Of a stretch of DNA of 64,000 nt, positions 18,816 to 53,551 are shown piece by piece. Origin of the DNA: Aliiglaciecola lipolytica (GTDB lineage: Bacteria > Pseudomonadota > Gammaproteobacteria > Enterobacterales > Alteromonadaceae). The notes beneath the pieces were generated by a model that saw nothing but the letters and a program-made list of their open reading frames with translations, made no database searches and was not told the DNA's origin. Numbering within the stretch: position 1 is the stretch's first letter; each line of letters opens with the position of its first letter. Position numbers and translations under genes: made by a program. The stretch is taken from the NCBI RefSeq assembly GCF_018860635.1, contig NZ_JAHKPT010000021.1:26515-90514 (forward strand). The letters run 5' to 3'.

Positions 18816-18836
18816 TTGCACAAGCAAGCGTAATTC

Positions 18837-20269: not shown

Positions 20270-20271
20270 GT

Positions 20272-21729: not shown

Positions 21730-21814
21730 ACCATAGTGGCGGTTTTACATTAAGTTGTAGAGCAAATTTAATCGTTTTAGATCCAAAAAATTTAAATTTT
21801 ATAAGGTAATAAAT

Positions 21815-22693: not shown

Positions 22694-22694
22694 T

Positions 22695-23243: not shown

Positions 23244-23271
23244 TATATCGCGCATTCAATACGAGATTTAA

Positions 23272-25234: not shown

Positions 25235-25451
25235 ATGAATACCCTCAGTATTTTGAGCTGTATTTAAGTTAATTCCCAACCTTTCCTCTACAGCTCAGAC
25301 TTCTTGTGGCGGTTAACTGGAAAACTCAATATATTGAGCAGGTGCTTAGTAAGACAGGTACCGTACATATTGGACTGTATTTAAGAAAGTTAAACACTCT
25401 ATTTTATGTTGCCTACTTTCAGATTGTTGCTAATTTTTCGGGAAATTTATA

Positions 25452-29812: not shown

Positions 29813-29815
29813 TTA

Positions 29816-31355
<1,540 letters not shown>

Positions 31356-31356
<1 letters not shown>

Positions 31357-34339: not shown

Positions 34340-36214
34340 ATGAACGAAAAATTGTTAGAACAATTACAACAAACCCAACATTTACAACGCTCACTTTTTA
34401 TTCATAATGAGAAAAACCCGTTTCATTGTACTGAAGAGCTGTTCAGTACACTCAAAGAGGCGATAAACAAAAAGACTCCGTTCTCATTGATTCGCTTAGG
34501 TGATGGTGAGGGACGAATCCTAGCCTACCCTCGTTTATTTGAAGATGATGTATTTATTTCACAGGTGCTTACATACCAGTTCGGTAAAGAAGTTATTGGT
34601 GAGTTGAAAAAAGAAATCGCTGAAGATTTTCTTGCGCCGAGCATGCTGAAACTGCAATCACTAATAAAAAATTCAATTTTAAATGCCGATGTTATTGGCG
34701 CTCCGAGCTGGTTACATTTTCGGGAAGCTGTAAATGAAAAGAATATCATTGCACAAACGGCACAGTCTGTGTGCCTTCAGAGTGTCGACCAACTTGTAAG
34801 TAAAGACATTCCAATTTTTGATCATTTCATTTTTAAGCCTTTTAATAAAAGTGGCTTTTTCAAGCGCTTGTTAGAAAATCTGGACTGTCTAACTGTTATT
34901 TCTCATACCGATATCAGTGACACATTGGTAGATACGTTTGATCTGAAAAGCTGCAACCACATTAAAATCCCTGGGCATCAATCTTTCATGAAGTCCGGGG
35001 AGTTTCATTTTCCTACTCGTTACAAAGAAATCGAAAACGAAATACAAGTTCCCGATAGAGGTCACTTGTTTTTTGTAGCCGCAGGTTATCTTGGTAAGCA
35101 TTATTGCAACATCATCAAGCAAAAAGGTGGTATTGCTATCGATATTGGTTCAATTTTCGACGGATGGACAGGTTTAGGTCGCCCGGATGCTACCGCTAAT
35201 GAAGAGCAGCGTCTGAAAAAGCCCCGTAAGTTGTATATACACATGGGGCACCATAAAACCGGTACAACATCTCTGCAGTTTTCACTTGTTCAGTCTGAAA
35301 ACCAGTTAAAAGAAGCTGGGATTTCGTTTTTAAAGCATAACAAAAGTGGCAACTCTTCTGAATTGATCTCAGTTTCTGCTGCACGCAGCAGGATAACAAC
35401 CAAACTGACTTCTACGTTTTATAATTTAATTCGCGAAGCACCGGAGGGTGATGGCATTATTTCTGCGGAACATCTTTCTTTTATCGAAAACGAAGCTGTA
35501 ATAGAAGAATTAGCGATGGAATGCAAAAAGCATTTCGATGATGTAGTAGTGATATGCTACCTTCGGCGTCAGGATAAACTTGCTATTTCTTTGAAGCAGC
35601 AAGCAGCAAAGCAACCTTTTAGTGGCGCATCACCTAGTAGCGCATTATGTGGCCATGACAATAAAAATGTCTTACCACCACTAACATTTACTCTGTTCAA
35701 TTACTTAAACTTTGAACAAAAAGTGCAAAAGTGGCAACGCGTATTCGGCGCAAACAAAGTGGTGATAAGAGTTTACGATAAAGAAGTGCTACATGAAGAA
35801 TGTATTTGCGCTGATTTTTCTAAATTACTAAAACTGAAAACGCCTCTTAAGACTATAAATGTTAACGATGGCCTTGGCGCAGTAAAAACCAAAATTAAAC
35901 ACTTGTTGCTAGAAACCAAAGCGCCCTCTGAGATCATTGACTATTTTGATAAACTAAAGATATCAGACGGCGATTATGAATTACGTAAGGTCGAGCATAG
36001 CCACGTTAACTTCATGCGAGCCTTTGCTGAAATAAATAATAGTTTCATACTGGATAGCGAGCTCTTATCAGTATTAAGTAACAATAATCCTGTGACCTAC
36101 TATGAGCCAGAGCGAGAAGTGGAAGATGTCGTTATCGAATTACTATTAATGGCTGAAAATATCCCACCCGATGTTCGTAACAACTATATCAAGCTATTGA
36201 AGGTGTTTAGATGA
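34340..36214 (+). CDS. GT-D glycosyltransferase fused to a sulfotransferase domain
   Basis: This 624-residue cytosolic protein has two enzyme modules. Residues about 1-285 resemble the GT-D (DUF1792-type) glycosyltransferases, with FSLIRLGDGEGRILAYP carrying the metal-binding DGE motif. Residues about 294-600 look like a PAPS-dependent sulfotransferase: LYIHMGHHKTGTTSLQ is the 5'-phosphosulfate loop and VVICYLRRQDKLAISLKQQ the 3'-phosphate region. The sulfotransferase half resembles the separate protein at 44514. I infer sugar addition coupled to sulfation of that sugar or its neighbour. The stop overlaps the next gene by 4 bases. Confidence 0.75.
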   Translation: MNEKLLEQLQQTQHLQRSLFIHNEKNPFHCTEELFSTLKEAINKKTPFSLIRLGDGEGRILAYPRLFEDDVFISQVLTYQFGKEVIGELKKEIAEDFLAPSMLKLQSLIKNSILNADVIGAPSWLHFREAVNEKNIIAQTAQSVCLQSVDQLVSKDIPIFDHFIFKPFNKSGFFKRLLENLDCLTVISHTDISDTLVDTFDLKSCNHIKIPGHQSFMKSGEFHFPTRYKEIENEIQVPDRGHLFFVAAGYLGKHYCNIIKQKGGIAIDIGSIFDGWTGLGRPDATANEEQRLKKPRKLYIHMGHHKTGTTSLQFSLVQSENQLKEAGISFLKHNKSGNSSELISVSAARSRITTKLTSTFYNLIREAPEGDGIISAEHLSFIENEAVIEELAMECKKHFDDVVVICYLRRQDKLAISLKQQAAKQPFSGASPSSALCGHDNKNVLPPLTFTLFNYLNFEQKVQKWQRVFGANKVVIRVYDKEVLHEECICADFSKLLKLKTPLKTINVNDGLGAVKTKIKHLLLETKAPSEIIDYFDKLKISDGDYELRKVEHSHVNFMRAFAEINNSFILDSELLSVLSNNNPVTYYEPEREVEDVVIELLLMAENIPPDVRNNYIKLLKVFR

Positions 36215-37350: not shown

Positions 37351-40047
37351 CTACCGGCAACTATAAATTCCTACTGATTCAAAAATTGTCTTAAATTGTT
37401 TCACACCATGTTCGAAAGAATAGTTCTCTTTGGCTAATAATTGACTATTTTCGGCAAAACTTTGCCAAAGTTTTTGGTCATCATATAATTTGATTATTTC
37501 ATCAACCCACTCTTGCGGCTCTTTTGCGATTAAAGTGTTCAATCCGTTAGTTAGGCCAGTCCCTTCAGCAGCTACATCGCTTAAGACACAGGGTACCTGA
37601 TAAGCCATCGCTTCTAAAACTTTTCCCTTTATACCTGAACCTGATAGAAGAGGAGCAACAAAAACTCTGTGCTTATGAAATACATCGTCTAGGCTTTTAG
37701 CAAACCCGACGATTTCAATATTTTCGCACTCATAGTCATCGAAGGACTTAGGCATTTTACTGCCGTAAACATACAGTTTTATATCTGGACGGCTTGTTAG
37801 CAGTAAAGGCATGATTTTTTCTACTAAATATTCTACTGCCTCTACATTTGGTTGGTGGCCATAACCTCCAAGAAATGCTATTCCTTCTCGTTCTTCGAAA
37901 CTAGGACCTGCAGTTTTACTTTCGAGTACCCAGGGGGTTATATGGAAGTTTCCTTGCTCCAATATATGAGATGCAATAACAGCATGCTCTGTGTTGTTAT
38001 AACATAAGATAGCGTCTACTTTTTTGCATATATTCAATTCATCTTCACGAGTTTTTATCGCTTTTGATCTATCTTCATCACTTTTTGCCGAGCGTAATTC
38101 TCGTAAGAAATGTAGATCTGCGTTATTAAACAATATTGGTATAGATGGTTGAAGACTCTTTATTCTGTCAACAAAGCTCTGTGCAACGTAATATCGAGTA
38201 ATATAAACAGCATCCATCTCTTTTAAACGCTTTGCTAACATACTATCAATAGATATATAAAAAGGCGCATAGAGCACTTCGACTCCCATTTTTTGAAGCT
38301 TGGTAGTCAATTCCCCTAAGTGAGCAAGATTGTCTGTTGTAAACGTCACTTTAAAGCCCAGTGATTGCATCAACTTTATTTCTTGAATGGCGGCATATGA
38401 TCCTGCATCTCTGCTAGGATCAGGTGCTGTGTAATCAATAACTAGAATACGCTTTTGAATATTACGATCTTTTTCAATCTGCAAGTTCTCAATACTTGCT
38501 TGTCCATTGTATCTTACTTCTGATGACCAGCGCTTTGCGAATTTGTTGAAATTAACTACTTGGTTTTTCTTAACACCACTATTGAGATCTCTACCATTAG
38601 TCATTCCTTCGAAATGAAATACCTCTGAGCTAGGAACATACAGCGTTGAATATCCTGCTTCTCGCACTTTGAATGCTATATCAGTGTCTTCAAAATATGC
38701 TGGGGCTAAATAATCACTAAAACCTTCAACTTTGTCCCAAATATCTCTTCGAATACAAAGTGAAGCTCCACTTAAATAATCAGCATGGCGCATATAGTTA
38801 TATTCCGGCTTATTTGGGTTGTCACCGTTTCCTACATTCCAAGGATTGCAAGAAGCCCAAACGATTCCGCCAGCTTCTTGTAATGTTCCATCTTCGTTAA
38901 GGAGCTTGCTTCCCACAATGCCGCAATCGTCATTCGATGAAATAACTTCGATTAATTCATCTAACCAACATGATGTGACTTCTGTGTCATTATTTAAAAA
39001 TAAAAGATACTCTCCTTGGCAAATTTCTGCTGCTTTGTTGCAGTTGCGAAGGAACATTAGATTTTTTTCATTTCGGGAGACTATCAGGTTTTCTATATAA
39101 ATTTCTGCCTCTTCTGTTTCATCAGTAGAACAGTCATCCGCTAAGATCACTTCAAATGGTGTTTTGTTATAAGCAAGTATTAGTGAGGCAATACAATGAT
39201 AAGTTAATTCAAACTTATTATAAGCGGGAATAATTATGCTTACCAAAGGTTTATCGAATTTAGGTAAGCTTAGTTTGGGGTATTCTTTTCGATTATTCCA
39301 ACCCTCACACAAAACGCTATGAGCATTATGAATATTGTTAAGAGTAGCCAAATCTAACTTTTCATCGAACCACAATTTTAGTGATTCATATCGAAACGCG
39401 GCTTGCGCGCAGTCGCTAATTAATCGTGTTGCCTTGTGAGGGTTTTTAAGGTGCTCTCTGGGAGTAATTATCGGAGAAAATTTTGCATGTCCTTGCCATA
39501 AAGCGTTAGAGCTGCCCTCTAACCCTATGGTGTACAGTCGTTCAATTCCATCTAATAATTCAGTTGGAATTGAAACTGATACTTGGTTATTACCTGTAAT
39601 TACATTCAGATGTTGGAAATAAACGAGTTTATTTCCGGCATTTAGCTGCAAACGAAGATTTGGGTATGCTTGGTCCGACTGAACATTAAAAATAAAGTTG
39701 AAAGAATCTTTAAACTTTAAATCCATTTCAAATGTGGGTTCTGTCCTTTCAAAAAGGAAGCTATTACCTTCTACTTTGTCACCAGTTTCTGAACACAATC
39801 TAATTGAAAGTTCACCATATTCAGTTATTTTATCGTCGATGAAAACTCGAAATGCATGACAACCATCGGTAAACCCTGCATCTTTTAGATCCTGTCTGAA
39901 AAGGGACGCTTCACCAGTACCTATAACTTTGCCATTGATTTCTATTTGAAAAGAAGACGATTCTGATGAAGGAGTGTTATTGAAATACCAACCAGAAAGA
40001 AATCCTGCGGTGAAGTCTTCAATCACAAACTGTGCTGTTTCAGACAT
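37351..40047 (-). CDS. Dual-domain glycosyltransferase (GT2 + GT4)
   Basis: This 898-residue protein is the only large gene of the capsule locus on the minus strand. Residues about 1-200 form a beta-rich N-terminal domain of unknown role. A GT2 domain begins at about 268 with PLVSIIIPAYNKFELT and has the LADDCSTDET and LFLNNDTEV motifs and the acceptor-region ED (FEDTDIAFKVREAGY). A GT4-type domain (about 534-890) begins ILVIDYTAPDPSRDAGS and includes GSGIKGKVLEAMAYQVPCVLS. Donor sugars are unknown. Being inverted, it must have its own promoter, probably in 40048-40294. Confidence 0.85.
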   Translation of the reverse strand: MSETAQFVIEDFTAGFLSGWYFNNTPSSESSSFQIEINGKVIGTGEASLFRQDLKDAGFTDGCHAFRVFIDDKITEYGELSIRLCSETGDKVEGNSFLFERTEPTFEMDLKFKDSFNFIFNVQSDQAYPNLRLQLNAGNKLVYFQHLNVITGNNQVSVSIPTELLDGIERLYTIGLEGSSNALWQGHAKFSPIITPREHLKNPHKATRLISDCAQAAFRYESLKLWFDEKLDLATLNNIHNAHSVLCEGWNNRKEYPKLSLPKFDKPLVSIIIPAYNKFELTYHCIASLILAYNKTPFEVILADDCSTDETEEAEIYIENLIVSRNEKNLMFLRNCNKAAEICQGEYLLFLNNDTEVTSCWLDELIEVISSNDDCGIVGSKLLNEDGTLQEAGGIVWASCNPWNVGNGDNPNKPEYNYMRHADYLSGASLCIRRDIWDKVEGFSDYLAPAYFEDTDIAFKVREAGYSTLYVPSSEVFHFEGMTNGRDLNSGVKKNQVVNFNKFAKRWSSEVRYNGQASIENLQIEKDRNIQKRILVIDYTAPDPSRDAGSYAAIQEIKLMQSLGFKVTFTTDNLAHLGELTTKLQKMGVEVLYAPFYISIDSMLAKRLKEMDAVYITRYYVAQSFVDRIKSLQPSIPILFNNADLHFLRELRSAKSDEDRSKAIKTREDELNICKKVDAILCYNNTEHAVIASHILEQGNFHITPWVLESKTAGPSFEEREGIAFLGGYGHQPNVEAVEYLVEKIMPLLLTSRPDIKLYVYGSKMPKSFDDYECENIEIVGFAKSLDDVFHKHRVFVAPLLSGSGIKGKVLEAMAYQVPCVLSDVAAEGTGLTNGLNTLIAKEPQEWVDEIIKLYDDQKLWQSFAENSQLLAKENYSFEHGVKQFKTIFESVGIYSCR

Positions 40048-40294: not shown

Positions 40295-41746
40295 TTGCTT
40301 AATCGGCTTAAAAATTCGTTAAAAAGGAAATTATCTAAAGATGCACTGTTACACGTGGATTTTATCATCAGCCAAGGGAATATGGTTTTAATACTAGGAT
40401 GGGCGGCACATAAAAGTGCAAGTCTTAGTGCTAATATGATCGAAGCCCATTTTAACGGGCAAAAGTTAGAACTTGATTTGTTCACCTTTTCTAGAAGCGA
40501 TGTGGTTCAACGATTTCAGTTACCTAGCGATAGCAGTTGCCTTGGATTTTTAGCTGTGCTCTCAGGAGTTTCTGGTGATTTAGATAATATATCTCTAAGC
40601 CACTCGCAAACCCAGTTTGGTATGTCGAAGTTGAATTTTAAGCAAGCAAATAACGTTACTGAAATCTTAAGCCATGTTCCCGTTCGCCAAGATGAAGCAA
40701 AGAAGTTTGTAGAAAATTATGGAATATCTTTAACGGGTTCTAATTCATCCAGTAGTCTGATAATAAGAAATCGAGACAAAGACGTTGAGAAAATAAAAAG
40801 CATTTTGCAGGGAGTTGATATTGCTAAAGTAGGTGCTTTAGAAACTTTACATTCTGAAGCGTTACCAGAAATTCATCGCATTTGGAAAGCCAAGCAATCT
40901 AAGAATAACAACCGAGAATTAAAGGTTTTTGGTGATGAAATTGACGAGCCGAAAGTGAGCGTTGTCATTCCTCTTTATGGCCGTTACGATTTTATGCAGC
41001 ATCAGTTAGCTAATTTTGCTGCGGATCCTTTTATGTCTGCAGTGGAAGTTATTTATGTACTCGATGATCCCGCATTACAACGGGAAGTTTTGATTACTGC
41101 CCATGGCTTATTTAAAACGTTTAGACACCCGTTTAAGTTAGTTTTGTCTGAACGTAATCGAGGTTTTGCCGGTGCCAATAATTTAGGTGTGGAATTTGCC
41201 ACATCAGAGCATTTATTGTTACTTAATTCGGATATTTTGCCAAAGCAAAATAGATGGCTTGAAGTTTATCTGGAGCAGTTCTCGTCAATAGATGATGCCG
41301 GAATTATGGGGGCAACGCTTACCTATGAGGATGAAACAATTCAGCACGCAGGAATGGAATTCAGAGAAGACTCCCACTATCCAGGAATTTGGATGAATCA
41401 CCATCCATTTAAAGGCGTACCAGTGGATTTAGTGCCATTGGAAGATGTTTTCCCATCTCCAATTACAACGGGGGCTTGTATGCTAATGACTACAAAATTA
41501 TATAGGGAGTTAGAAGGCTTTGACCCTATGTATGTGTTGGGAGATTTTGAGGATTCAGACCTTTGCTTAAAAGTCATCGACAGGGGCTTTAAAGTGTATG
41601 TATCCGGAAAAATTAAACTCTATCATTTGGAGCGTTTATCCCAAGATTTAGTGGATAGTGGAGATTGGAAATTTAAATTGACCTTAGCAAATGGAGCATA
41701 TCAAGCAAATAAGTGGCGTAATTTGATTCAGGAGGTCTCTGCATGA
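40295..41746 (+). CDS. GT2 family glycosyltransferase
   Basis: This 483-residue cytosolic protein has a GT2 domain from about residue 221 (VSVVIPLYGRYDFMQHQL), with YVLDDPA, GFAGANNLG, LLLNSDILP and the FEDSDLCLKVIDRGF acceptor/base motif. The N-terminal 215 residues are a separate domain without a clear signature. It overlaps the following GT4 gene by 4 bases, so the two are coupled and may build adjacent linkages. Confidence 0.85.
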   Translation: MLNRLKNSLKRKLSKDALLHVDFIISQGNMVLILGWAAHKSASLSANMIEAHFNGQKLELDLFTFSRSDVVQRFQLPSDSSCLGFLAVLSGVSGDLDNISLSHSQTQFGMSKLNFKQANNVTEILSHVPVRQDEAKKFVENYGISLTGSNSSSSLIIRNRDKDVEKIKSILQGVDIAKVGALETLHSEALPEIHRIWKAKQSKNNNRELKVFGDEIDEPKVSVVIPLYGRYDFMQHQLANFAADPFMSAVEVIYVLDDPALQREVLITAHGLFKTFRHPFKLVLSERNRGFAGANNLGVEFATSEHLLLLNSDILPKQNRWLEVYLEQFSSIDDAGIMGATLTYEDETIQHAGMEFREDSHYPGIWMNHHPFKGVPVDLVPLEDVFPSPITTGACMLMTTKLYRELEGFDPMYVLGDFEDSDLCLKVIDRGFKVYVSGKIKLYHLERLSQDLVDSGDWKFKLTLANGAYQANKWRNLIQEVSA

Positions 41747-42984
41747 GTAGTTTACAAGGGAAGCGCTTATTAATCATTTCTCATGGTCACCCAGACCTGA
41801 ATAAAGGCGGTGCTGAGATGGCTGCCTACAATATGTTTCAGGAACATCTGAAGCAAGGTGTCGACGCCTATTTTCTAGCACGGACCGATCAGACTCCCCA
41901 CGGCGGTGCTGCTTTTTCACAGAGAAATAGCGCTCGTGAAATCTTATTTCACACGACTATGGATGATGGCTTTTTATTTTCAAACATCAAAACTCGGCAT
42001 ATGTGGCAGGAGTTTAGAGACTTACTGTTACTTATCAAACCCGATGTAGTTCATTTACATCACTACTTCTTACTGGGAATTGAGATACTTGAAGAAATTA
42101 AACTGTCTTTACCAAATGCTAGGATTGTTCTTACTCTTCATGAATATTTAGCCATTTGTCACAACAAGGGGTTGATGGTTAAAACCAATGGTAAACTTTG
42201 TTATAAAGCCACTTCACGAGATTGCCATAGCTGTTTCCCTGAAAAACAGCCAGGAGATTTCTTTCTTCGTGAAAAATACATTAAGCGTCTTTTTCAAAAT
42301 GTTGATCACTTTGTCTCTCCATCAGCTTTTTTAGCCAAACGCTATATTGATTGGGGGATTGACGAAAGTACAATTTCTGTCATTGAGAACGGCCAAAATT
42401 GCATTCAAAAAAATACAACCGTAAGTCAAGCGGATAATGATTTCAGACCAGTAAAATTCGCTTTCTTCGGTCAGATTAACCCCTACAAAGGAATTGATGT
42501 GTTGATAGGCGCACTAGCGGGGTTAACTAAACAAGTTAAAAAGCAAGTTGTGATAGAAATTCATGGTGCCAATTTAGAGCATCAAACAGGAAGTTATCAG
42601 CAAAAAGTTAAAACTCTGATGAATAAATATGGAGCCCGTGTGCATTTTCATGGCGCTTATGAACCGCAGGAGATGCCGTCTATCTTGTCTTCAGTTGATT
42701 GGGCAGTTGTACCATCGATTTGGTGGGAAAACTCTCCCATGGTGATTCAAGAGGCATTCAATTGCGGTGTACCTCTAATTGTGAGTGATATTGGTGGTAT
42801 GAAAGAAAAAGTTGAAGATGGTGTTGACGGGTTGCATTTCAGAGATGGTAGCCCATTTGATTTAGCTGATAAAATGAGTTTGTGTGTAAATGATAGGCGT
42901 CTACGAAACCAACTAGCAGCTAATATTAAAGCTCCTATGAGTATCGAAGAGTGTGTAGACCGTCATTTATCAATATATTGCTAG
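41743..42984 (+). CDS. GT4 family glycosyltransferase
   Basis: This 413-residue GT-B protein starts RLLIISHGHPDLNKGGAEMAAYNMF and has VHLHHYFLLGIEIL. The C-terminal donor domain contains KFAFFGQINPYKGIDVLIGAL and WENSPMVIQEAFNCGVPLIVSDIGGM with the E-x7-E motif. A Cys-rich insertion with spaced cysteines (CHNKG, LCYKATSRDCHSC) at about 140-165 resembles the metal-binding Cys motif seen in some GT4 enzymes. Donor unknown. It overlaps the upstream GT2 gene by 4 bases. Confidence 0.88.
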   Translation: MSSLQGKRLLIISHGHPDLNKGGAEMAAYNMFQEHLKQGVDAYFLARTDQTPHGGAAFSQRNSAREILFHTTMDDGFLFSNIKTRHMWQEFRDLLLLIKPDVVHLHHYFLLGIEILEEIKLSLPNARIVLTLHEYLAICHNKGLMVKTNGKLCYKATSRDCHSCFPEKQPGDFFLREKYIKRLFQNVDHFVSPSAFLAKRYIDWGIDESTISVIENGQNCIQKNTTVSQADNDFRPVKFAFFGQINPYKGIDVLIGALAGLTKQVKKQVVIEIHGANLEHQTGSYQQKVKTLMNKYGARVHFHGAYEPQEMPSILSSVDWAVVPSIWWENSPMVIQEAFNCGVPLIVSDIGGMKEKVEDGVDGLHFRDGSPFDLADKMSLCVNDRRLRNQLAANIKAPMSIEECVDRHLSIYC

Positions 42985-44513: not shown

Positions 44514-45458
44514 ATGAAACAATTAATCTTACATGTCGGTTTACATAAAACCGGAACATCTTCTATTCAATCTTTCTTAATGAAGAATATTGAGATACTA
44601 AAAGAACAGGGAACCGCAGTTTATACCCGAAAAGGTAAGGCGGGAGTCCACTGGGTTCCTGCGATGATCAAGAATAAACAGCCTCATCAGGTGAAAATGG
44701 TTGCAGACTTCGTGCGTTCAGAACTAGCCAAGGATGACGTTAACCAAGTAATTATTTCGTCCGAAAACTTTACCCAAACAAAACAAGTTAATTATCCAAT
44801 GATTACGTCATTACTGCCCTCAAACACTCAGCTAGTCATAATTATTTATTTAAGGCGGCAAGACTTACTGAAGCAATCTGTTTATAGTCAGATGGTTAAG
44901 CAAGGTACCTTCAGTGGTACTATAAACGAAGATAGTCACTATAATTTTGACCTTTACAAGCAGTGTACAAAGTGGAAAGCACTGACAAATGATATTAGGG
45001 TCAGAGTGGTTGAGCGTTCGCAGTTAATTGAAGGCGATTTACTTAAGGATTTTGTTCACACTATTGGATTAAAGTGGAATGAAAAGTTTGAACCGCTAGT
45101 AAATCAAATTAATGAATCGTATTGCTCTGATACAATGGAATTTAAACGATTGTTGAATGCAAAAAAGTTACCACCAACAATTAATAAAAAAATAGCTGCA
45201 ACTTTATCTCAGTATGACAAAGAAAGAAGTGATAATGAGCGCGAAAAAGCGGTCTTTTTTGATTTTAGTGAGGCGAGTAGTTTTTTAGATGGGTTTAACG
45301 AGGGGAACAGTGGTATAGCTCGAGAGTTTTTGGGGAGAGAGGATGGGCTGCTTTTTACTGAGATGCCATCTGAAGAGCAACTAAAAAATATTCCTAAATT
45401 GTCAGAAAAACAAATATTAAACTTTTCAGCGTATTTGATAAAAAATCTAGTGAGTTAA
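44514..45458 (+). CDS. Sulfotransferase family protein
   Basis: This 314-residue predicted PAPS-dependent sulfotransferase is cytosolic. The 5'-phosphosulfate-binding loop is LILHVGLHKTGTSSIQSFL at the N-terminus; the 3'-phosphate region is VIIIYLRRQDLLKQSVYSQMVKQGTFSG. The same KQ-x-FSG layout occurs in the C-terminal half of the fusion protein at 34340, so the two are paralogues. The acceptor is probably a capsule sugar. A small hairpin (AGTGCG-TTT-CGCACT, about 44487-44501) precedes the start. A pyruvyl transferase pseudogene follows. Confidence 0.78.
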   Translation: MKQLILHVGLHKTGTSSIQSFLMKNIEILKEQGTAVYTRKGKAGVHWVPAMIKNKQPHQVKMVADFVRSELAKDDVNQVIISSENFTQTKQVNYPMITSLLPSNTQLVIIIYLRRQDLLKQSVYSQMVKQGTFSGTINEDSHYNFDLYKQCTKWKALTNDIRVRVVERSQLIEGDLLKDFVHTIGLKWNEKFEPLVNQINESYCSDTMEFKRLLNAKKLPPTINKKIAATLSQYDKERSDNEREKAVFFDFSEASSFLDGFNEGNSGIAREFLGREDGLLFTEMPSEEQLKNIPKLSEKQILNFSAYLIKNLVS

Positions 45459-45640
45459 TTTTAAACCTTCTAAGTTAAGTTTCGTTCTTTCAATTCCAAC
45501 AGCCGATATTATTTTGTCTTATATTATCGGCTACAAGTGGCCAGAACGCTCCACTACTTTAAATTCTATTTCTCAAATGGTGATTTTAGCGGTTAACTCA
45601 TTTGTTAGGTTTTTAAATTGTTTAAGTCGCTTTTTAACGG
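45459..45640. other. Intergenic segment before the pyruvyl transferase pseudogene
   Basis: No gene is seen. A hairpin with GCCGATATTAT / ATATTATCGGC-type arms at about 45500-45532 could end transcription of the sulfotransferase gene, but it lacks a clear T-run. Confidence 0.35.
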
Positions 45641-46051
45641 GAGTACGTTCCTCTTACTTATTGGTTGCAGGCATCTAATTTTGGAGATCTACTTGCACCA
45701 TGACTATTTAGCACGCTTAACGGTAAAGAAACATAACTGGTAAGAGTTGCGCCTGATCCAGATAAGGAACTTCTTAAAAAGCCAACTTATATTGCGGTAG
45801 GCTCAATTATATTCCGTGTCCAGAATAATTGAATTGTATGAGGGGCTGGCTCATTTGGAACGGAGCAGGCACTACAAATAAGTAAAAAGGCTAAATATCA
45901 CGCAGTCATGGGACCTTTGACGAGAAGCTTAGTCATGAACCAAGGTGGGGAATGTCCAGCAATTTATAGAGATCCAGCTATGCTTTCCCCTTAAGCGTAT
46001 AACCCATCGGTAAAAGTTAAGTGTGAAATTGGCTTAATTCCAGCATTCCTA
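45641..46051 (+). pseudogene. Decayed polysaccharide pyruvyl transferase
   Basis: One frame reads YWLQASNFGDLLAP, the entry motif of polysaccharide pyruvyl transferases (YW....NFGD.L.P). It continues through PTYIAVGSII, then KYHAVMGPLTRSLV, GECPAIYRDPAMLSP and CEIGLIPAF, which follow the family order (RGxLT, GDPAxLxP, GxIPH). At least five in-frame stops interrupt it (45701, 45734, 45830, 45839, 45992). The first two-thirds of the family are represented in about 410 bases; the C-terminal part is not recognisable. It is a dead gene that once added pyruvate ketals or a related group. Confidence 0.8.
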
Positions 46052-46243
46052 AAGGATAAGAGTTTAAATTTTTTCATTACTTTTTATTGGTTGATAAAAT
46101 TCGACATGCACAACCATACAATTTTCGGGTATTTACACACAATTTAAATACTAAGTTGCATATAAATGTTGCATATTTATGGCAGTTATATGACATTTCG
46201 GTATACTAGCCCGTTTTTAAAATAAGTGTAAATTTCATCCCCA

Positions 46244-48193
46244 ATGATAAGCAGATTGAAAAAAGGACTTTCTAGGCGTATTCGATTAGGTCGAGATAAG
46301 TTCAAAGCTCAAAAAAATTCAAAATTAATGTCTTTTTCGGATCTCTATTCCGTTAAACAGAGCAAAGATGCCTTATTGCTAAAAAGTGGCCTTCCAGGCC
46401 TTGTTTATGGTCCATTTAGAAATGTTGCGGCCCATAGGTTTCATGTAGAGATGCCAGTTAAAGCTGTTCGACTATCATTAATTGCGGAGTATAACGAAGT
46501 TCTAAACTTTAACCATATAGCTATTTGGGCCAGGGATGACAACAATAAGCTGTATAAGGTTACTAGCGATTATGAATGCCAAATGAGTAGTGTCTCTAAG
46601 GTGCTCCCCGATCCAACTCAGGCAATGTTAGGGGATGGTGCTAATTCGGTTTCTGTTCATTCTAAACGAGAGATTAAACCATGGTGGATAGTTAAATTCG
46701 ATAAAGTTCATCATGTGGCTTTCATTGAGTTTTACAATCGTAAAGACAAGTGGGGTGTTCGGTCTAAAAGTATGCTGCTCTCTTGTCTAAATGAAAAAGA
46801 TAAAATAGTTTTTCAGGCAGGTAATGTCATTAAGAAAGGCGCTAAGCAGGCGTTTTACGATTGGGGATTGCCATTACTGGAAAAATGTACGGATTTTCTT
46901 AATTCGAAAGGTTTAAAAAATCAAGCAACTGAAATCGAGCAAAAGTTTGTTGAATATTTAACGGATAACACTATTGACGCCGAGAAGCGCGGGTCATTGT
47001 TAACTTGTTTACAAAAGTGTCAAACCTTAATCGAAAGTGACACGCCTGATTTACCTAACGAACTTGATAAAGCGTTAGTTGTCACTGTACCTGCAGATGC
47101 GAAGTACCTTAGGGTAATAGGATACCGACGCAAGCTAATGCGTCCTGTAACCCTAAAAGTTAGACTTGACGGTAGCACTTCCACTTTATTAGAAGAACAT
47201 GATCCTGATTTTATGGAAGCGCATTTTCAAAATAATAAGTGTATTTGGACGCTTCAGCATCCACACATATTTAATATTCCTGTTGAATCGAAAGGGGATA
47301 TTAAAAAAGTAGAACTATGGTGTGATGATTTTTATAGTGGAGACGCATTTGTTCAGCGTCAAATTCAAGTATCTGCGGATAATAAAACCTGGCAATCCAT
47401 TGAATCTACGTTTGAACGTTTTGCAGCAAGACTTGCATTACTAACGGCTCAAGAGTGGCTGTTAGGTGAAACTTGGGACCATGTGTTTGTTGAACAATTA
47501 GGGCATTTTTTGGCAACTTATCGTATGAGTCAGGCTCGTACAGTGAAGCCTCTTTTAAGAGCCAATAGAGATTTGTTGCCGTCGTTTTACGAGGGCGTTG
47601 AGCGGGGGGGAAGCAGCGCTAGTTTTTTGCCACCGGTAATTTACACTCGTCATGGATTAACTATACCTTTTGAACACATCGATTCTGCGTTTTTGGCGGA
47701 TAGGATGAAACGCTTCACGAACTTCTTAGATGAAAATCTCAACCTACAAGCTTTTCCGTGCTACGGAACTTTGCTAGGTATTCATCGAGATGGAGACTTT
47801 CTTCCCCATGATGATGATATTGATTTGGCAGTTATAGTTGATTTACCCGCCGATACTGATTATCTAGATGCTACTAAGCAATGGGCAGAAACTTTGCGAC
47901 AGTTGGGAGTGCCATGTCGCCCACCCACACCGACTAGTTTAAACTTGCATTGTTATTTCGAAGACTTCGATATGGATTTGTTTATGATTTATCGAATCCC
48001 TGACAAGCCAAATCTTGTATGGACACACATGGAAGGTTACCAAACTCGGGAAGTGAAACGCAGTTTATTGGAGCCCATTTCTACATTGGAGTTTTGTGGT
48101 CATGAATTTTACGCACCAGCTAAGATAGAAGCGTTTCTTGAGGATCGCTATGGCAAAGGGTGGGTAACTCCGGATCCTACATTTGAGTTGTAG
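46244..48193 (+). CDS. LicD-family transferase with discoidin-like domains
   Basis: This 649-residue protein has a C-terminal LicD domain (about 485-640): FPCYGTLLGIHRDGDFLPHDDDIDLAV holds the HDDDID metal motif and EDFDMDLFMIY a later acidic site. LicD-fold enzymes transfer phospho-alcohols (phosphocholine, ribitol-phosphate) from CDP donors. The N-terminal half has F5/8C (discoidin)-like beta domains at about 65-185 (KPWWIVKFDKVHHVAFIEFYNR) and a looser one at about 275-390, which could bind the glycan. No signal peptide. The 428-residue LicD gene follows after 25 bases. Confidence 0.8.
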   Translation: MISRLKKGLSRRIRLGRDKFKAQKNSKLMSFSDLYSVKQSKDALLLKSGLPGLVYGPFRNVAAHRFHVEMPVKAVRLSLIAEYNEVLNFNHIAIWARDDNNKLYKVTSDYECQMSSVSKVLPDPTQAMLGDGANSVSVHSKREIKPWWIVKFDKVHHVAFIEFYNRKDKWGVRSKSMLLSCLNEKDKIVFQAGNVIKKGAKQAFYDWGLPLLEKCTDFLNSKGLKNQATEIEQKFVEYLTDNTIDAEKRGSLLTCLQKCQTLIESDTPDLPNELDKALVVTVPADAKYLRVIGYRRKLMRPVTLKVRLDGSTSTLLEEHDPDFMEAHFQNNKCIWTLQHPHIFNIPVESKGDIKKVELWCDDFYSGDAFVQRQIQVSADNKTWQSIESTFERFAARLALLTAQEWLLGETWDHVFVEQLGHFLATYRMSQARTVKPLLRANRDLLPSFYEGVERGGSSASFLPPVIYTRHGLTIPFEHIDSAFLADRMKRFTNFLDENLNLQAFPCYGTLLGIHRDGDFLPHDDDIDLAVIVDLPADTDYLDATKQWAETLRQLGVPCRPPTPTSLNLHCYFEDFDMDLFMIYRIPDKPNLVWTHMEGYQTREVKRSLLEPISTLEFCGHEFYAPAKIEAFLEDRYGKGWVTPDPTFEL

Positions 48194-48218
48194 ATCCGTA
48201 ATTTAAAGCAGGAAACAT

Positions 48219-49505
48219 ATGTTTTTTAGAAAAAAAGCAACGTCATCTGATACACCAGTTGAGGATGAACAAAAGATTCTTAACGAGGTGAGTAGTTATT
48301 TAGCTAACAATCCGCTTAGAGAATTTAAAGGGGTTAAGAGTAACGATCCACTTGTTATTGAGACCAGCAACAAAGCGCGTTTCATTCGCTTAAGCTTGCA
48401 GGTTGAGTCTTCATTTCACCTAGATGCAATAGAAATCTTTAATCAAGCTGGCCGAAACGTAGCACCAAATAAAAATACAATCATTAGTTCTACTTACAAT
48501 GATGAAGAAAAATATAATGGCCAAGGTGCTATAAATGGCAAAAAGAATGGTGGCGCTGGATTTCATACCAAACGTGAACACAATCCTTGGTTAGTAATAG
48601 ACTTAGGTTCAATCCGCAATTTAGCTAAAATCGTTGTCTATAACAGGGAAGGAGAATTTTTTACTCGAGCTTTGAGCTTGAAAGTGGAAACGTCAAGAGA
48701 TCTAAGACATTGGCACTTAGTTCATGATAACTGGGGTTTTATAAAAACCTATAAAGACGGTAGTTTGTCAGAATTTGAGCAAGCACTACTCCATGCCGGA
48801 ATATTGAACCCAGGCCCTCCGGCAGCGTATTTGAAAAAACTAAAAAACCTAGAACAAGATGAAAAAGCCTTATCTTTTCATAGACTAATTAATCAGTTAG
48901 TAAAAAGTAAAGGGGTTGCTTTTGGACCTCATGGTTTTATGAAGACCTTTGATTTAAAAACGGATGCGGAAAAAAACAAAGTTTTTCGCGAGCTTTCAAT
49001 ACTACTAAAGTGGTTAAATGAAGAGTTTGGCGTACCGGCTTTTGTGTCTTCTGGGACGCTTTTAGGTTTAGTGCGTGATGGCAAATTAATTGGTCACGAT
49101 GATGATGTCGATATTTGTTATATTAGTAAAGAACAGGGCGAGCAGGCTATACTTGAAGAAAGAAAAAGGCTTGTTGCATTTTTAACGGAAAAAGGTTGCA
49201 GACTTTCCCCTTCTGGTATTGCACATTATTGGTGTACCACGCCAGGCGGATTAAACTTAGATATCTTTACAGGGTTCACCGAAGAAGGTAAGTGCAGCAT
49301 GAATCCAATAGGAAGAAAAGAAGTTCCTATTGACGCCGTATTGCCTTTGAGTAAACAAAGTATTAACGGCAATATTTTGTATTTTCCACAGAACCCTGAA
49401 CCCTTATTAGTGTTAAACTACGGTGATAACTGGCGTAACCCAGATCCACTTTGGACGTTTAATTGGGGCAAAGCGAAACAAGATTTTGCGTTTCTTTATT
49501 TTTAA
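48219..49505 (+). CDS. Second LicD-family transferase with a discoidin-like domain
   Basis: This 428-residue paralogue has a discoidin-like N-terminal domain (about 50-175), including GQGAINGKKNGGAGFHTK, NPWLVIDLGSIRNLAKIVVYNR and a typical F5/8C core. A LicD domain (about 270-420) shows FVSSGTLLGLVRDGKLIGHDDDVDICYI and GLNLDIFTGF. Presumably it transfers a phospho-alcohol from a CDP donor to a capsule sugar. It is followed after about 15 bases by a TagD-like cytidylyltransferase that could make that donor. No signal peptide, so cytoplasmic. Confidence 0.82.
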   Translation: MFFRKKATSSDTPVEDEQKILNEVSSYLANNPLREFKGVKSNDPLVIETSNKARFIRLSLQVESSFHLDAIEIFNQAGRNVAPNKNTIISSTYNDEEKYNGQGAINGKKNGGAGFHTKREHNPWLVIDLGSIRNLAKIVVYNREGEFFTRALSLKVETSRDLRHWHLVHDNWGFIKTYKDGSLSEFEQALLHAGILNPGPPAAYLKKLKNLEQDEKALSFHRLINQLVKSKGVAFGPHGFMKTFDLKTDAEKNKVFRELSILLKWLNEEFGVPAFVSSGTLLGLVRDGKLIGHDDDVDICYISKEQGEQAILEERKRLVAFLTEKGCRLSPSGIAHYWCTTPGGLNLDIFTGFTEEGKCSMNPIGRKEVPIDAVLPLSKQSINGNILYFPQNPEPLLVLNYGDNWRNPDPLWTFNWGKAKQDFAFLYF

Positions 49506-49520
49506 TTGATTAGAGAATTA

Positions 49521-49919
49521 ATGAGAACAGTAATAACTTTTGGTACTTTTGATGTGTTTCATGTTGGGCACATTAATCTTCTTCAACGCGCTTCTATGCA
49601 TGGAGATTGTTTAATCGTTGGTGTGTCTACAGATAAACTTAACTTTTCGAAGAAAGGAAGAAATCCTGTATATAACCAAAACGATAGAATGAAGATTATC
49701 AACAGTCTTCGCTATGTAAACCTGTGCTTTCCCGAAGAGTCTCTTGAGAAGAAAGCTGAATATATTCAGTATTATAAAGCCGATGTTTTGGTGATGGGGG
49801 ATGACTGGGAAGGAAAGTTTGATCATTTGAAAGACATTTGTGAAGTGGTCTATTTACCTAGGACGCCATCTATATCCACCACCGAAATCATTGAAGTTAT
49901 TAGTTCAAGCGCTGAATAG
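49521..49919 (+). CDS. tagD: Glycerol-3-phosphate cytidylyltransferase-like (TagD family)
   Basis: Predicted to make CDP-glycerol (or a related CDP-alcohol) from CTP and the alcohol phosphate. MRTVITFGTFDVFHVGHINLL carries the HxGH motif, and YLPRTPSISTTEII corresponds to the RTxGISTT signature with Ser replacing Gly. MGDDWEGKFD is also typical. The 133 residues match TagD. The ATG at 49521 is preferred over an in-frame TTG at 49506. Its place right after two LicD genes suggests it supplies their donor. Glycerol against another alcohol is not certain from sequence. Confidence 0.85.
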   Translation: MRTVITFGTFDVFHVGHINLLQRASMHGDCLIVGVSTDKLNFSKKGRNPVYNQNDRMKIINSLRYVNLCFPEESLEKKAEYIQYYKADVLVMGDDWEGKFDHLKDICEVVYLPRTPSISTTEIIEVISSSAE

Positions 49920-49948
49920 CCATTGGTTTTTTGAGTCAGTTATCATTA

Positions 49949-51004
49949 ATGAATAAGACAATACTTATCCATATTGGCCCGCCCAAAAGCGGCACCTCGG
50001 CTGTGCAAAAAGCTCTCAGTAATAATCGCGATCTATTATTACAACATGGGGTAGATTATCCAGAGCATGAAATTGGCCCTAATGGCATAAGTTCTGGAAA
50101 CCTAACGTCTATTCTTGATTTGGACCAAGATGGTAAATGGAACGTTAGTCGAAGTAAGGTTTCTGACCTTTTAGAGCGATTTAAATTGTCGGAAGCTCAC
50201 ACCCTTTTACTTAGTTCCGAGTATTTTTTTTATTTAACTAATGAAATTGCAGAGCTTATTCCAAATGCGAAATTAATTGCTTATATTCGCTGCCCTTTGG
50301 AAACCTTTGAATCGTCGTATAATCAGTCTGTCAAAAGGCATATGCGCACAACACCAGTAGAATTTGGCAAAAACCTTCATCTGACTACTTTAAACTTATT
50401 GACAGAGGCCGTTGAAAAACTTGGAAGAAAGCGATTTATATTACGTGCTTATTTGTCTAGCCGTGACTACGATTTGATTGAGGATTTTTGCTCAGCTGTT
50501 AATCTGCCCTCTCTAAAATCGTCGAAAAGCAATACCAATAGTTCATATACATTTGATGCGTTGGAGTTCAAGAGGTGGCTTAATCAATTCAACTTAGAAG
50601 AAATTGATGGGGCAATCGACCAAGCTTTACAAGCCTACGATGGAGGGGATAAGCAATTTTCTCTTTTACCTGAATCGCTATTTAACCGTTATCAAAAACA
50701 ATCTCTGGATAATACAAGAGACTTCGTTCATCAATACAAGGTCGTAAATGGTAAAGCGCTTATTTCTTTTTTAAAAAATCGCCAATCTAAGCCATATCAT
50801 GAACAAAATATAAGTCGGTGCAATGTTAAAGAAATATGTCAGTATTTTATTGAGCATCACCCCCAGGTGTTTGATGACATTTGTGAACGACTAAAGCACC
50901 ATTCAAGTTCAGATATTCAACATGTTGAAATTATTACACTTTTACTTGAACAGCAGAAATTAAAATCGTCGTTTTTAAGACGGTTAGTTTCATTATTTGG
51001 CTAA
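49949..51004 (+). CDS. Sulfotransferase family protein
   Basis: Predicted PAPS-dependent sulfotransferase of about 351 residues. ILIHIGPPKSGTSAVQKAL is the 5'-phosphosulfate loop and LIAYIRCPLETFESSYNQSVKRHM the 3'-phosphate region. It is closely similar in layout to the protein at 52433: both have SSGN near residue 55-60 and an ALEFKRWxNQF segment in the middle. The two flank the pyruvyl transferase gene. I use the ATG at 49949; an in-frame TTG at 49931 is possible. Confidence 0.8.
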   Translation: MNKTILIHIGPPKSGTSAVQKALSNNRDLLLQHGVDYPEHEIGPNGISSGNLTSILDLDQDGKWNVSRSKVSDLLERFKLSEAHTLLLSSEYFFYLTNEIAELIPNAKLIAYIRCPLETFESSYNQSVKRHMRTTPVEFGKNLHLTTLNLLTEAVEKLGRKRFILRAYLSSRDYDLIEDFCSAVNLPSLKSSKSNTNSSYTFDALEFKRWLNQFNLEEIDGAIDQALQAYDGGDKQFSLLPESLFNRYQKQSLDNTRDFVHQYKVVNGKALISFLKNRQSKPYHEQNISRCNVKEICQYFIEHHPQVFDDICERLKHHSSSDIQHVEIITLLLEQQKLKSSFLRRLVSLFG

Positions 51005-51117
51005 ATAGTCAGGCTGTCTGATGTCTGTTAGTAATTTAAATGTCATATTTTTGTAATTTAAAGTTCATCTAATCTACTTACTCTCTCAACTATTCTCAAA
51101 ATAACAGTTGTCTGAGT

Positions 51118-52272
51118 ATGAAACATAAAAAAGTGGCCTTTATTGGACGTCCCGGCTTTATTGAAAATAGTTTTAATAAACCAGTAGAAAGTCTATTTAA
51201 AGAAGTGGGGTTAAATACCGGCAATCTGGCATTTTGGTATGCAATGAGTCAACATATCGCTGATCCTAAAGATTATTTCGGATGGTCTTTCGACCCTAAA
51301 AAAGTTAAGAATGACTACGATGTGCTGGTTTTTCCTGCTGCAAATCAACTCAATCCTGATTGGGATATGGGGGGGTTAGCTGATTTAATTGATAAAGCCG
51401 ATACGCCTCTACTAATTTGTGGTTTAGGGGCTCAAGCTTCAGATATGAGCAAAAAGTTAAGTTTTAATGCTGGAACCAAGCGCTTTTTAAAAGTGATATC
51501 TGAGCGTGCGGTTAAAATAGGCGTAAGAGGCGACTATACCGCTCAGGTGTTAAACGAAAACAATGTTACTAATGTTGAAGTATTAGGCTGTCCGTCAAAT
51601 TTCACTAACCCTTCGAAAACACTGGGGCAGGATATATCACAAAAGTTTTCAACAATGACTGATGTTGAAAAATTAGTGCTTAATATAGATATTACCCAAA
51701 AACTTGCTGAAAAAGTTCGCGTCATGTTTAATTGGACGATGGGGCGCAATACTGAAATTGTTAACCAAGCGCCCCTCGATCTTTTGAAACTTTCCCACAG
51801 AGACACTAAACATATCGATACGCAATTGACTAGACGAGTACATAACCTTTTAGCACCCTCAGTTTCGCTTTCCTACTTCAAAAAAATAGTGAGTAATCAG
51901 TTTGTATCCTACTTTGATGTAAATGAATGGATGTATCAGCTGCATCAATTTGATCTATCGATTGGAACTAGGCTTCACGGAAATATGCTTGCGTTACAAG
52001 CCGGCACGCCTAGTGTATTTATGCCCCACGATTCTAGGACGCAAGAATTAGCAGATATCATGGCTTTGCCTACCTATTCACTTGACAAAGTCACGCGTGC
52101 GACTACTTTAGAAACGGTTATTGAGAATGTAAATTTTGATGGTGCTTTGTATGACAAATCTAGACATAAGCTAAGTTTAAAATATAAAAAACTGATCAAT
52201 GATACTGGTCTAAATGCAAGTGAAGGACTTAAAGCCTTAAGTAAAGGAAAAGAAAAATCATGGCTCGGCTAA
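51118..52272 (+). CDS. Polysaccharide pyruvyl transferase family protein
   Basis: This 384-residue cytosolic enzyme of the PS_pyruv_trans family typically adds a pyruvyl ketal from phosphoenolpyruvate to a sugar. Signatures are PLLICGLGAQASDMS, KIGVRGDYTAQVLNENNV with VEVLGCPSNF, and the C-terminal FDLSIGTRLHGNMLALQAGTPSVFMPHDSRTQEL (the RxHGN motif). It lies between two paralogous sulfotransferases. Unlike the pseudogene at 45.6 kb, this copy is intact. The acceptor is unknown; some family members do other chemistry. Confidence 0.85.
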   Translation: MKHKKVAFIGRPGFIENSFNKPVESLFKEVGLNTGNLAFWYAMSQHIADPKDYFGWSFDPKKVKNDYDVLVFPAANQLNPDWDMGGLADLIDKADTPLLICGLGAQASDMSKKLSFNAGTKRFLKVISERAVKIGVRGDYTAQVLNENNVTNVEVLGCPSNFTNPSKTLGQDISQKFSTMTDVEKLVLNIDITQKLAEKVRVMFNWTMGRNTEIVNQAPLDLLKLSHRDTKHIDTQLTRRVHNLLAPSVSLSYFKKIVSNQFVSYFDVNEWMYQLHQFDLSIGTRLHGNMLALQAGTPSVFMPHDSRTQELADIMALPTYSLDKVTRATTLETVIENVNFDGALYDKSRHKLSLKYKKLINDTGLNASEGLKALSKGKEKSWLG

Positions 52273-52432: not shown

Positions 52433-53551
52433 ATGAGTCATTATCAGGATGTTGAATTGATAAAAAACGTTTACATACATGTTGGTCCCCCTAAAACGGG
52501 TACTTCAGCAGTTCAAAAGTGGCTGAATAGTAATCAAGATTTTTTAAAAGAAAACGGAATTTTTTACCCTTCTCACAATGTTGATTCTAATGGCGTTAGC
52601 TCCGGAAACGTCAGGTCTATCTATGACATTAACGCAAATAAACAATTAAGTTTAAACACCGATAACCTTTCTAAATTGTTGGATGGATTCTACAAAAGTG
52701 ATTTTACAACTTTGCTTTTATCATCAGAATTCTTTTTCAGAAGAATGGAGGAGCTTAAACGGGCGATTCCAGATGCGAACTTTATTGCATACATAAGAAA
52801 CCCCATGGAAATTAAGGAGTCGACGTATAACCAATCTGTTAAACGACACTTTCAAGTTCAAACAATAAATGTCGATAGAAGCAAACGCCTGCCTTACATG
52901 GATAGGTTTGTTGAATTTATTACACAGTTTAAAGCTGATGATTTATATTTGCGGGTATATGGTGATAAATATTTCAAAAATGGCAACATTGTTTCAGATT
53001 TGCTTTCAGTGTTAGGGGTAGATGTGAGAGCTACATTACCCATGGTGAATAGTTCTTATCAGTTTGAAGCATTGGAATTTAAAAGATGGTTTAACCAGTT
53101 TGAACTGCACGATTATCAAGTGTTAGTAGACCGAGCACTGCAGGGCTATACAGGGGGAACAAGCCATTACTCCCTTATTCCATCCACAAAATATGTTGAA
53201 GATAGTATTTATTATTCCTCTATTATTGAAAATTTCGCGCGAGATTTAAATGCAAGTTGTCTACAGGCATTAGTTGCAGACATGAAATCACCTGTACCGA
53301 AACCGTTTTTTAAGCAAGGGTTAAATAAAACGGATTTCTTAGCAGTATGCGATTATTTGCAAAATCAACTGAAAGTTGATTATTACTTACTGGTTAAACA
53401 AATACAGAACTCGAAAGCATCTGAGGACAGAACTTTTCAATTGCTATTTATTAACTCATGCGCTTCAAAATACAAATATATGCATCGAGTTTATCAATTG
53501 CGTTTTCGGATTAAAAAAGCAATAAATGCATTAAAAAGCATAATCAAATAG
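52433..53551 (+). CDS. Sulfotransferase family protein
   Basis: This 372-residue predicted PAPS-dependent sulfotransferase is paralogous to the one at 49949. VYIHVGPPKTGTSAVQKWL is the 5'-phosphosulfate loop and FIAYIRNPMEIKESTYNQSVKRHF the 3'-phosphate region; ALEFKRWFNQFEL is shared with the paralogue. The C-terminus is basic (FRIKKAINALKSIIK). Four such sulfotransferase domains occur in the locus, each presumably with its own acceptor position. Confidence 0.8.
   Translation: MSHYQDVELIKNVYIHVGPPKTGTSAVQKWLNSNQDFLKENGIFYPSHNVDSNGVSSGNVRSIYDINANKQLSLNTDNLSKLLDGFYKSDFTTLLLSSEFFFRRMEELKRAIPDANFIAYIRNPMEIKESTYNQSVKRHFQVQTINVDRSKRLPYMDRFVEFITQFKADDLYLRVYGDKYFKNGNIVSDLLSVLGVDVRATLPMVNSSYQFEALEFKRWFNQFELHDYQVLVDRALQGYTGGTSHYSLIPSTKYVEDSIYYSSIIENFARDLNASCLQALVADMKSPVPKPFFKQGLNKTDFLAVCDYLQNQLKVDYYLLVKQIQNSKASEDRTFQLLFINSCASKYKYMHRVYQLRFRIKKAINALKSIIK

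Follow-up and report, generated by a model that had tools for sequence, protein, structure and literature searches.

Which enzyme takes up CDP-glycerol in a bacterium in which no TagB/TagF transferase is found? This question is raised by a polysaccharide locus of Aliiglaciecola lipolytica, where two genes for LicD-family proteins are followed by a gene for a TagD-like cytidylyltransferase. The locus lies in a stretch of 64,000 nucleotides (NZ_JAHKPT010000021.1, positions 26,515–90,514; hereafter the window) of a 5.03 Mb genome. In the list of open reading frames (ORFs), the three genes are adjacent, run in the same direction and are all intact:

46244..48193, plus strand: LicD1, 649 amino acids (aa), ORF intact; F5/8C-like domain ~64–193, beta-rich region ~278–388 (model only), LicD/nucleotidyltransferase (NTase) domain ~480–649
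48219..49505, plus strand: LicD2, 428 aa, ORF intact; F5/8C domain ~34–170, LicD/NTase domain ~245–428; of the pair, the protein most tightly tied to TagD
49521..49919, plus strand: TagD-like cytidylyltransferase, presumed CDP-glycerol synthase, 132 aa from ATG

LicD proteins are commonly interpreted as choline transferases (PMC4047060, PMC3647402). Here, we propose instead, with a probability of roughly 0.7, that CDP-glycerol is made by the TagD-like enzyme and that LicD2, and probably LicD1 too, moves glycerol-phosphate from it onto a polysaccharide. The LicD proteins would thus substitute for TagB/TagF, because their adjacency to TagD is conserved, because LicD and the TagB/TagF family (PF04464) complement each other across genomes and because both proteins have the fold of FKRP with its conserved Asp residues. 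An earlier note on this DNA had named the LicD proteins as the natural recipients of the TagD product, a suggestion that these three lines of evidence support well, and had added that no description of such a module was known. In this second respect it was mistaken: Cps7C, a LicD-family protein of Actinobacillus pleuropneumoniae, was reconstituted in 2024 as a glycerol-3-phosphate polymerase that uses CDP-3-Gro from Cps7B (PMC11666461), and the gene pair had been published as well (PMC3647402).

The third gene probably starts at the ATG at 49521, 15 bp past the stop codon of LicD2, rather than at the listed TTG at 49506. A promoter and terminator scan of 45400–51200 returned sites no more frequent than in shuffled sequence.

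Architecture and fold of the LicD proteins

Both proteins exceed the Pfam cut-off of the LicD family (PF04991; 39.5 and 24.7 bits, cut-off 22.6). The N-terminal F5/8C (discoidin) domains that the earlier note had assigned to both are clear in LicD2 (39.6 bits, cut-off 28.2), whereas LicD1 stays just short of the cut-offs (27.6 vs 27.8 bits for PF22633; 19.1 vs 28.2 for PF00754). Among relatives, all ten members of the LicD2 alignment (A6) match F5/8C and all five of the LicD1 alignment (A7) match PF22633, while PF04991 is matched by every member of both, each time at E≤0.001 and with the F5/8C counts including the window protein. Tetratricopeptide repeat (TPR) families are absent from the Pfam lists of LicD1, LicD2 and the alignment members, and neither LicD1 nor LicD2 has a Pfam match to PF04464.

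FKRP is the top Foldseek match of both AlphaFold models (E 7e-7 for LicD2 and 2e-5 for LicD1), which have a mean predicted local distance difference test score (pLDDT) of 84.9 (LicD2) and 75.2 (LicD1). It is also the best match in VIA-align, with Z 13.5, a root-mean-square deviation (rmsd) of 3.8 and 162 aligned residues for LicD2, and Z 13.6, rmsd 4.1 and 154 aligned residues for LicD1; LicD1 even finds FKRP by sequence alone (E 0.0064). The VIA-align overlay is confined to the NTase domain and leaves the F5/8C part uncovered. No F5/8C lectin appears by name among the best 50 Foldseek matches of either model; in VIA-align, residues 640–779 of the galactanase BT0290 (6eon) overlay LicD2 34–165 (Z 11.8, 126 aligned, rmsd 3.1). 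The VIA-align search barely covered the N-terminal part of LicD1, and the second beta-rich region of that protein (~278–388) is seen solely in the model with its mean pLDDT of 75.

Each protein carries a DxDxD motif and a further Asp (D523/D525/D527 and D578 in LicD1; D294/D296/D298 and D348 in LicD2). In the alignment, the two sets match one another as well as the corresponding residues of FKRP and of a 380-aa LicD from another genome (L127, genome G629) that adjoins a TagD and PF04464 proteins. In L127, D246/D248 and D292 lie one residue off D247 and D293, reported as essential in the 378-aa Cps7C (PMC11666461). By position and family, and with L127 standing in for the Cps7C sequence in a comparison of published residue numbers, the Asp residues of the window pair would correspond to D247 and D293 of Cps7C.

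The last Asp is replaced by Thr in two of the 18 other LicDs of the alignment, namely the third LicD of this genome and one from G136, where no TagD lies within the 3.2 kb stretch fetched; some LicDs without a nearby TagD still keep it. The third LicD is encoded behind a phosphoenolpyruvate (PEP) mutase-cytidylyltransferase fusion, a thiamine pyrophosphate enzyme and an iron-dependent alcohol dehydrogenase, and this cluster (G000:C1:351245-355681; L047:8246-12682) probably supplies a CDP-phosphonate donor to the LicD that belongs to it.

Conservation of the LicD2–TagD neighbourhood

Relatives of LicD2 were collected through a family search, in which 26 of 147 genomes matched P0002, most via the LicD domain alone, and through a search of genome contigs, which returned ten loci (one of them, L057, merely a discoidin match). 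A full-length relative with 40–79% identity was counted in 12 distinct genomes, the window included: the window, G141, XY-R5, G068, Ferrimonas balearica, the metagenome-assembled genome (MAG) P03SWT1Cbin.13, Neiella, Psychrosphaera, Microbulbifer agarilyticus, M. guangxiensis, Shewanella jiangmenensis and Alteromonas sediminis. The search for the gene set in other genomes, which the earlier note had advised, bore out LicD2–TagD in 11 of these 12 genomes and LicD1 in seven. TagD is directly adjacent to LicD2 in eight and lies ~5 kb off, within the fetched stretch, in three (G068, Ferrimonas and the MAG). Since the same neighbours recur across other genomes, the three-gene arrangement is not a product of chance. 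Two of the spaced loci, those of G068 and the MAG, carry a TagD of another type, that of Bacillus subtilis TagD, so that a non-orthologous enzyme takes the place of the window's type. Of the 11 genomes that carry the set, seven returned no PF04464 match (window, G068, Ferrimonas, Psychrosphaera, Neiella and both Microbulbifer).

Two glycosyltransferase (GT) genes upstream of LicD1 both have homologs in 11 of the 12 LicD2 loci, the same loci for either gene and again with the window included:

40295..41746, plus strand: GT2 glycosyltransferase, candidate acceptor-building partner
41743..42984, plus strand: GT4 glycosyltransferase

The association extends to other LicD types. Scored with our own TagD model (A3, >200 bits), 13 of the 26 genomes from the family search have a TagD within 1.5 kb of the matched LicD, and wider stretches, fetched for eight of the 26, added three more (G068, G011 and G110). 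G113 has a weaker cytidylyltransferase alone (81 bits), and in the remaining nine no TagD was seen in the stretches fetched. Several of these other LicD types are ~300 aa long with a different N-terminal region.

Two further arrangements were met along the way. G510, outside the count of 12, has an adjacent LicD–TagD pair of the window's type. G110 encodes a 1687-aa protein (L046:7470-12533) in which LicD is joined to a glycerophosphodiester phosphodiesterase domain (PF03009, E 9e-15), in a stretch that also holds TagD and a TPR-PF04464-GT protein; judged by its domains, this fusion would be a further tie of LicD to glycerol-phosphate.

LicD and PF04464 as alternative partners of TagD

The absence of TagB/TagF, as asserted in the earlier note, extends to the entire genome, in which PF04464 has no match. 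Across the order, we searched the 80 genomes with the best TagD E-values (~119 bits and more) among 394, leaving out seven further listed ones, with PF04464 and with a LicD core model (A5). This model comprises 20 LicD sequences, 14 of which had a TagD within the stretch fetched and six of which did not; they were picked after their neighbours were known and after three divergent members of a set of 23 (A4) had been left out. PF04464 was found in 65 of the 80 genomes and LicD in 26, and no genome had neither. LicD is present in all 15 TagD genomes without PF04464 vs 11 of the 65 with it (Fisher 1.2e-9, a test that ignores kinship); with the five genomes that donated to A5 removed (G000, G002, G009, G023 and G058), the figures are 11/11 vs 10/64. 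The 15 genomes are spread over five family groups, and permutation within genera, of which only three are informative, gave 12.2 expected against 15 observed (P 0.009).

At the level of single loci, the partner within 2 kb of 87 TagD genes is PF04464 only in 54, LicD only in 17 (spanning seven family groups) and both in four. LicD is also more frequent in the TagD genomes (26/80) than among the others of the order (17/314, eight of the 17 in group f2), an enrichment that the makeup of A5 can inflate, more so than the contrast within the 80, and in which the 314 others include TagD matches below threshold.

Both types of TagD are paired with both transferases. Among the 81 of 87 loci with sequence, the window's type has PF04464 as partner at 31 of 50 loci, LicD at ten, both at one and neither nearby at eight; for the other type, the corresponding numbers are 18, 7, 3 and 3. 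A tree of 83 TagD proteins (50 rows of the window's type; built by a quick method from 135 columns, with 34 of the 80 inner branches left unresolved) requires a minimum of five switches from one transferase partner to the other. Its well-supported branches imply that the LicD label was gained or lost at least four times, even if the labels are also clustered by descent. Judged by this tree and the neighbourhoods, the same TagD lineages serve either LicD or PF04464 transferases, as is expected if their common product is CDP-glycerol. A sequence feature of the window's TagD type, the LN-SKK-R stretch, had been considered as a LicD-specific marker; the idea was dropped since the type pairs with PF04464 more often than with LicD, a preference that therefore favours CDP-glycerol as the product.

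A proposed route and its known relatives

In the route we envisage, cytoplasmic CDP-glycerol would come from the TagD-like enzyme, which would couple CTP to sn-glycerol-3-phosphate. LicD2, with its fukutin/FKRP fold and a metal presumably held by the DxDxD Asp residues and the further Asp, would then transfer glycerol-phosphate from CDP-glycerol to a hydroxyl of the polysaccharide built by the GT2/GT4 pair, the F5/8C domain probably holding the glycan. Where present, LicD1 probably would carry out a second transfer, either at another position or onto the first glycerol-phosphate, as FKRP does after fukutin, and the polymer would exit via the locus's own ABC exporter. Here, we infer glycerol as the alcohol as well as the activity, metal, acceptor and order of steps; sequence does not distinguish between a linker, a backbone and a side group, so that the word 'decoration' likewise stands for an inferred role.

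The closest precedents are Cps7C/Cps3C with Cps7B/Cps3B, in which a PF04991 transferase with an FKRP-like NTase domain is fed CDP-glycerol by a TagD-type glycerol-3-phosphate cytidylyltransferase (GCT) (PMC11666461). In contrast to the F5/8C domains found here, Cps7C has an N-terminal TPR region, as predicted in that paper; it acts after the PF04464 protein CpsA and before CpsD on a poly(3-deoxy-D-manno-oct-2-ulosonic acid) (poly(Kdo)) chain (PMC11666461). While the principle has been known since 2024, the present set differs in its F5/8C rather than TPR domains, its two LicDs and the absence of PF04464 and KpsC/KpsS matches. An Actinobacillus-type route (CpsA primer, poly-Kdo, CpsD) was considered for this genome and rejected, as neither PF04464 nor PF05159 has a match in it.

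Does the pair then make a polymer? With the same donor, and thus nested within our proposal, the LicDs might build a poly(glycerol-phosphate) linker or backbone instead of adding single decorations. Cps7C, in the literature consulted the one bacterial LicD shown to use CDP-glycerol along with its serotype 3 counterpart Cps3C, is after all a glycerol-3-phosphate polymerase (PMC11666461), and LicD genes that lie side by side could act as primer and extender. Still, we regard this as unlikely, given that the described Cps7 route is unavailable in a genome without a match to CpsA/CpsD-type PF04464 or KpsC/KpsS (PF05159), that the N-terminal domains are F5/8C-like and not TPR, and that LicD2 occurs without LicD1 in five of the 12 fetched loci.

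The proposed transfer of glycerol-phosphate by LicD2 also has parallels beyond Actinobacillus. In Neisseria meningitidis serogroups H and Z, cshA/cshB and cszA/cszB each pair a GCT gene with a licD-domain gene in a capsule locus whose product has glycerol-3-phosphate repeat units (PMC3647402). These loci additionally contain a teichoic acid synthase gene (cshC/cszC), and their licD-domain proteins measure ~422–429 aa by gene length, with no F5/8C domain mentioned in the part of the paper that describes them (PMC3647402). Fukutin and FKRP, which share the fold and the use of CDP-polyols and act as two enzymes in tandem on one glycan, transfer glycerol-phosphate from CDP-glycerol in vitro (PMC8587909; PDB 6KAJ-6KAN), yet they are mammalian and their normal donor is CDP-ribitol (PMC8587909). 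The phosphocholine transferases of Lic-1 share the Pfam family and the DxDxD core but draw on CDP-choline made via LicA/LicC (PMC10434233), whereas the present genome has no choline kinase over cut-off. From TagB/TagF (PF04464), the same donor and the same kind of product are expected, even though they form a separate family with a GT-B fold.

In the Gram-positive Oenococcus oeni, the eps2 models 277 and C23 combine LicD and TagD in one exopolysaccharide (EPS) cluster in which LicA/LicC were not found; LicD is annotated as a choline phosphotransferase there, and the sections concerned draw no link to TagD and report that no glycerol was detected in soluble EPS of the strains tested (PMC4047060). 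LicD proteins are associated with glycerol-phosphate units in polysaccharide types A and B of Lactococcus lactis (PMC8327497), and LicD has been proposed as a ribitol-phosphate transferase (PMC7188991). A Pseudoalteromonas O-polysaccharide bears glycerophosphate, so such groups do occur in marine Gram-negatives (PMC3210612). In the open-access literature searched, we found no paper on a discoidin–LicD association and no description of a discoidin–LicD pair without PF04464 or of the order-wide complementarity.

The identity of the donor

That a TagD-like cytidylyltransferase follows the LicD pair, as the earlier note had it, is confirmed by its top PDB match, glycerol-3-phosphate cytidylyltransferase of B. 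subtilis (1COZ, E 4e-38), by the conserved core motifs HxGH, GDDWxGKFD and RTxxxSTT, and by 142.2 bits against TIGR01518, a score below the cut-off of that family.

Several observations weigh against our proposal. Some concern the partnership: 12 of the 87 TagD loci have neither transferase within 2 kb, no TagD was found in the stretch fetched around the LicD2 homolog of A. sediminis (40%), LicD1 is missing from the fetched stretches of five of the 12 loci, and four of the 11 genomes with the LicD2–TagD set have a PF04464 protein elsewhere. Others concern the donor: the TIGR01518 score falls short of the curated glycerol-3-phosphate cut-off of 165.4 bits; a branch with 99% support in the Shimodaira–Hasegawa-like approximate likelihood ratio test (SH-aLRT) parts the window's TagD type from the clade of B. 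subtilis TagD and Staphylococcus aureus TarD; and the LN-SKK-R stretch has a one-residue insertion compared with the other type. Moreover, of the 31 PF04464 proteins paired with the window's type, eight align over nearly the whole profile; the other 23 match only its later part, from position ~113–160 onwards, and may belong to a subfamily that uses a different donor. Finally, LicD-family enzymes with other CDP-alcohols are known, such as mf1, which accepts CDP-choline and CDP-ethanolamine (PMC11982090).

Together, the observations on the donor could mean that the TagD-like enzyme activates a different alcohol phosphate, be it ethanolamine phosphate or another small polyol, which LicD would then transfer. 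In favour of this reading, PCYT2 uses both phosphoethanolamine and glycerol-3-phosphate (PMC8587909). We nevertheless deem such a donor quite unlikely. Glycerol-3-phosphate cytidylyltransferases (E 4e-38 for 1COZ and 9e-35 for the S. aureus enzyme) rank far ahead of ethanolamine-phosphate cytidylyltransferase (7e-21) among the PDB matches, and the same TagD type adjoins PF04464, named CDP-glycerol glycerophosphotransferase, in 31 of 50 loci, eight of them with near-full profile matches; this is not proof, since PF04464 also includes transferases for other donors. In addition, a B. subtilis-type TagD substitutes in G068 and the MAG, and the low TIGR01518 score is shared by 47 of the 54 PF04464-only TagD loci, the cut-off being exceeded in just 13 of the 394 genomes.

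Very unlikely is a chance neighbourhood of TagD and LicD in a capsule island, with the LicDs using, e.g., CDP-choline or CDP-phosphonate: the PEP mutase-cytidylyltransferase cluster does make a CDP-phosphonate pool likely, but the third LicD has those donor genes alongside and carries Thr at the position of the last Asp of the window pair, the best choline kinase (PF01633) score in the genome is 22.9 bits against a cut-off of 29 (PF01636-type LicA and LicC were not searched for), and neither LicD–TagD adjacency nor complementarity with PF04464 fits coincidence. LicA may also fall in PF01636.

Transfer of glycerol-phosphate from CDP-glycerol by the LicD pair thus remains our preferred reading, and the data suggest that a gammaproteobacterial LicD beside TagD is often a glycerol-phosphate transferase. 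Adjacency of the two genes would then predict capsule chemistry from sequence, and the set offers bacterial relatives of FKRP for study. Donor choice by LicD becomes testable too, as LicDs lie next to two distinct synthases of CDP donors within this single genome. A bolder generalization is possible yet doubtful: LicD might constitute a second general class of CDP-glycerol transferases in Gram-negatives, swapped several times with TagB/TagF, and the double discoidin–LicD might be a fukutin–FKRP-like relay that lays two consecutive glycerol-phosphates on one glycan and needs no TagB/TagF primer.

The surrounding polysaccharide locus

The window as a whole is a polysaccharide locus with many glycosyltransferases. 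Further features are:

17046-20269, plus strand: Poly_export/SLBB protein, ABC2_membrane and ABC_tran (polysaccharide exporter)
20272-21729, plus strand: presumed export partner ORF, no Pfam match
23272-25234: RmlD protein and nucleotide-sugar dehydratase
30505-33048: DAHP_synth_1, CTP_transf_3 and SIS-CBS proteins, read as KdsA, KdsB and KdsD
49931..51004, plus strand: P-loop protein resembling sulfotransferases, encoded immediately after TagD (22.7 bits vs a Pfam cut-off of 22.8)

Despite the ABC exporter and the Kdo-synthesis-like genes at 17046-33048, KpsC/KpsS (PF05159) has no match in the genome. The protein at 49931-51004 has homologs in several related loci and is one of four sulfotransferase-like P-loop proteins with KTGTS or KSGTS motifs interleaved in the locus (34340-36214, 44514-45458, 49931-51004 and 52433-53551). 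Of the two that were run against Pfam, one narrowly misses a sulfotransferase cut-off and the other matches no family, while related loci carry sulfotransferase genes over the cut-off; as read from sequence, these genes point to a sulfated polymer. A two-domain glycosyltransferase (GT2 and GT4-like, 37351-40047) lies on the minus strand amid a run of plus-strand genes. Lastly, the gap ahead of LicD1 (45459-46243) contains a decayed gene, visible as two stretches in different frames with stops, which are similar to a 306-aa protein of a related MAG locus (L050:4235-5155) with 59% over 143 aa and 44% over 55 aa.

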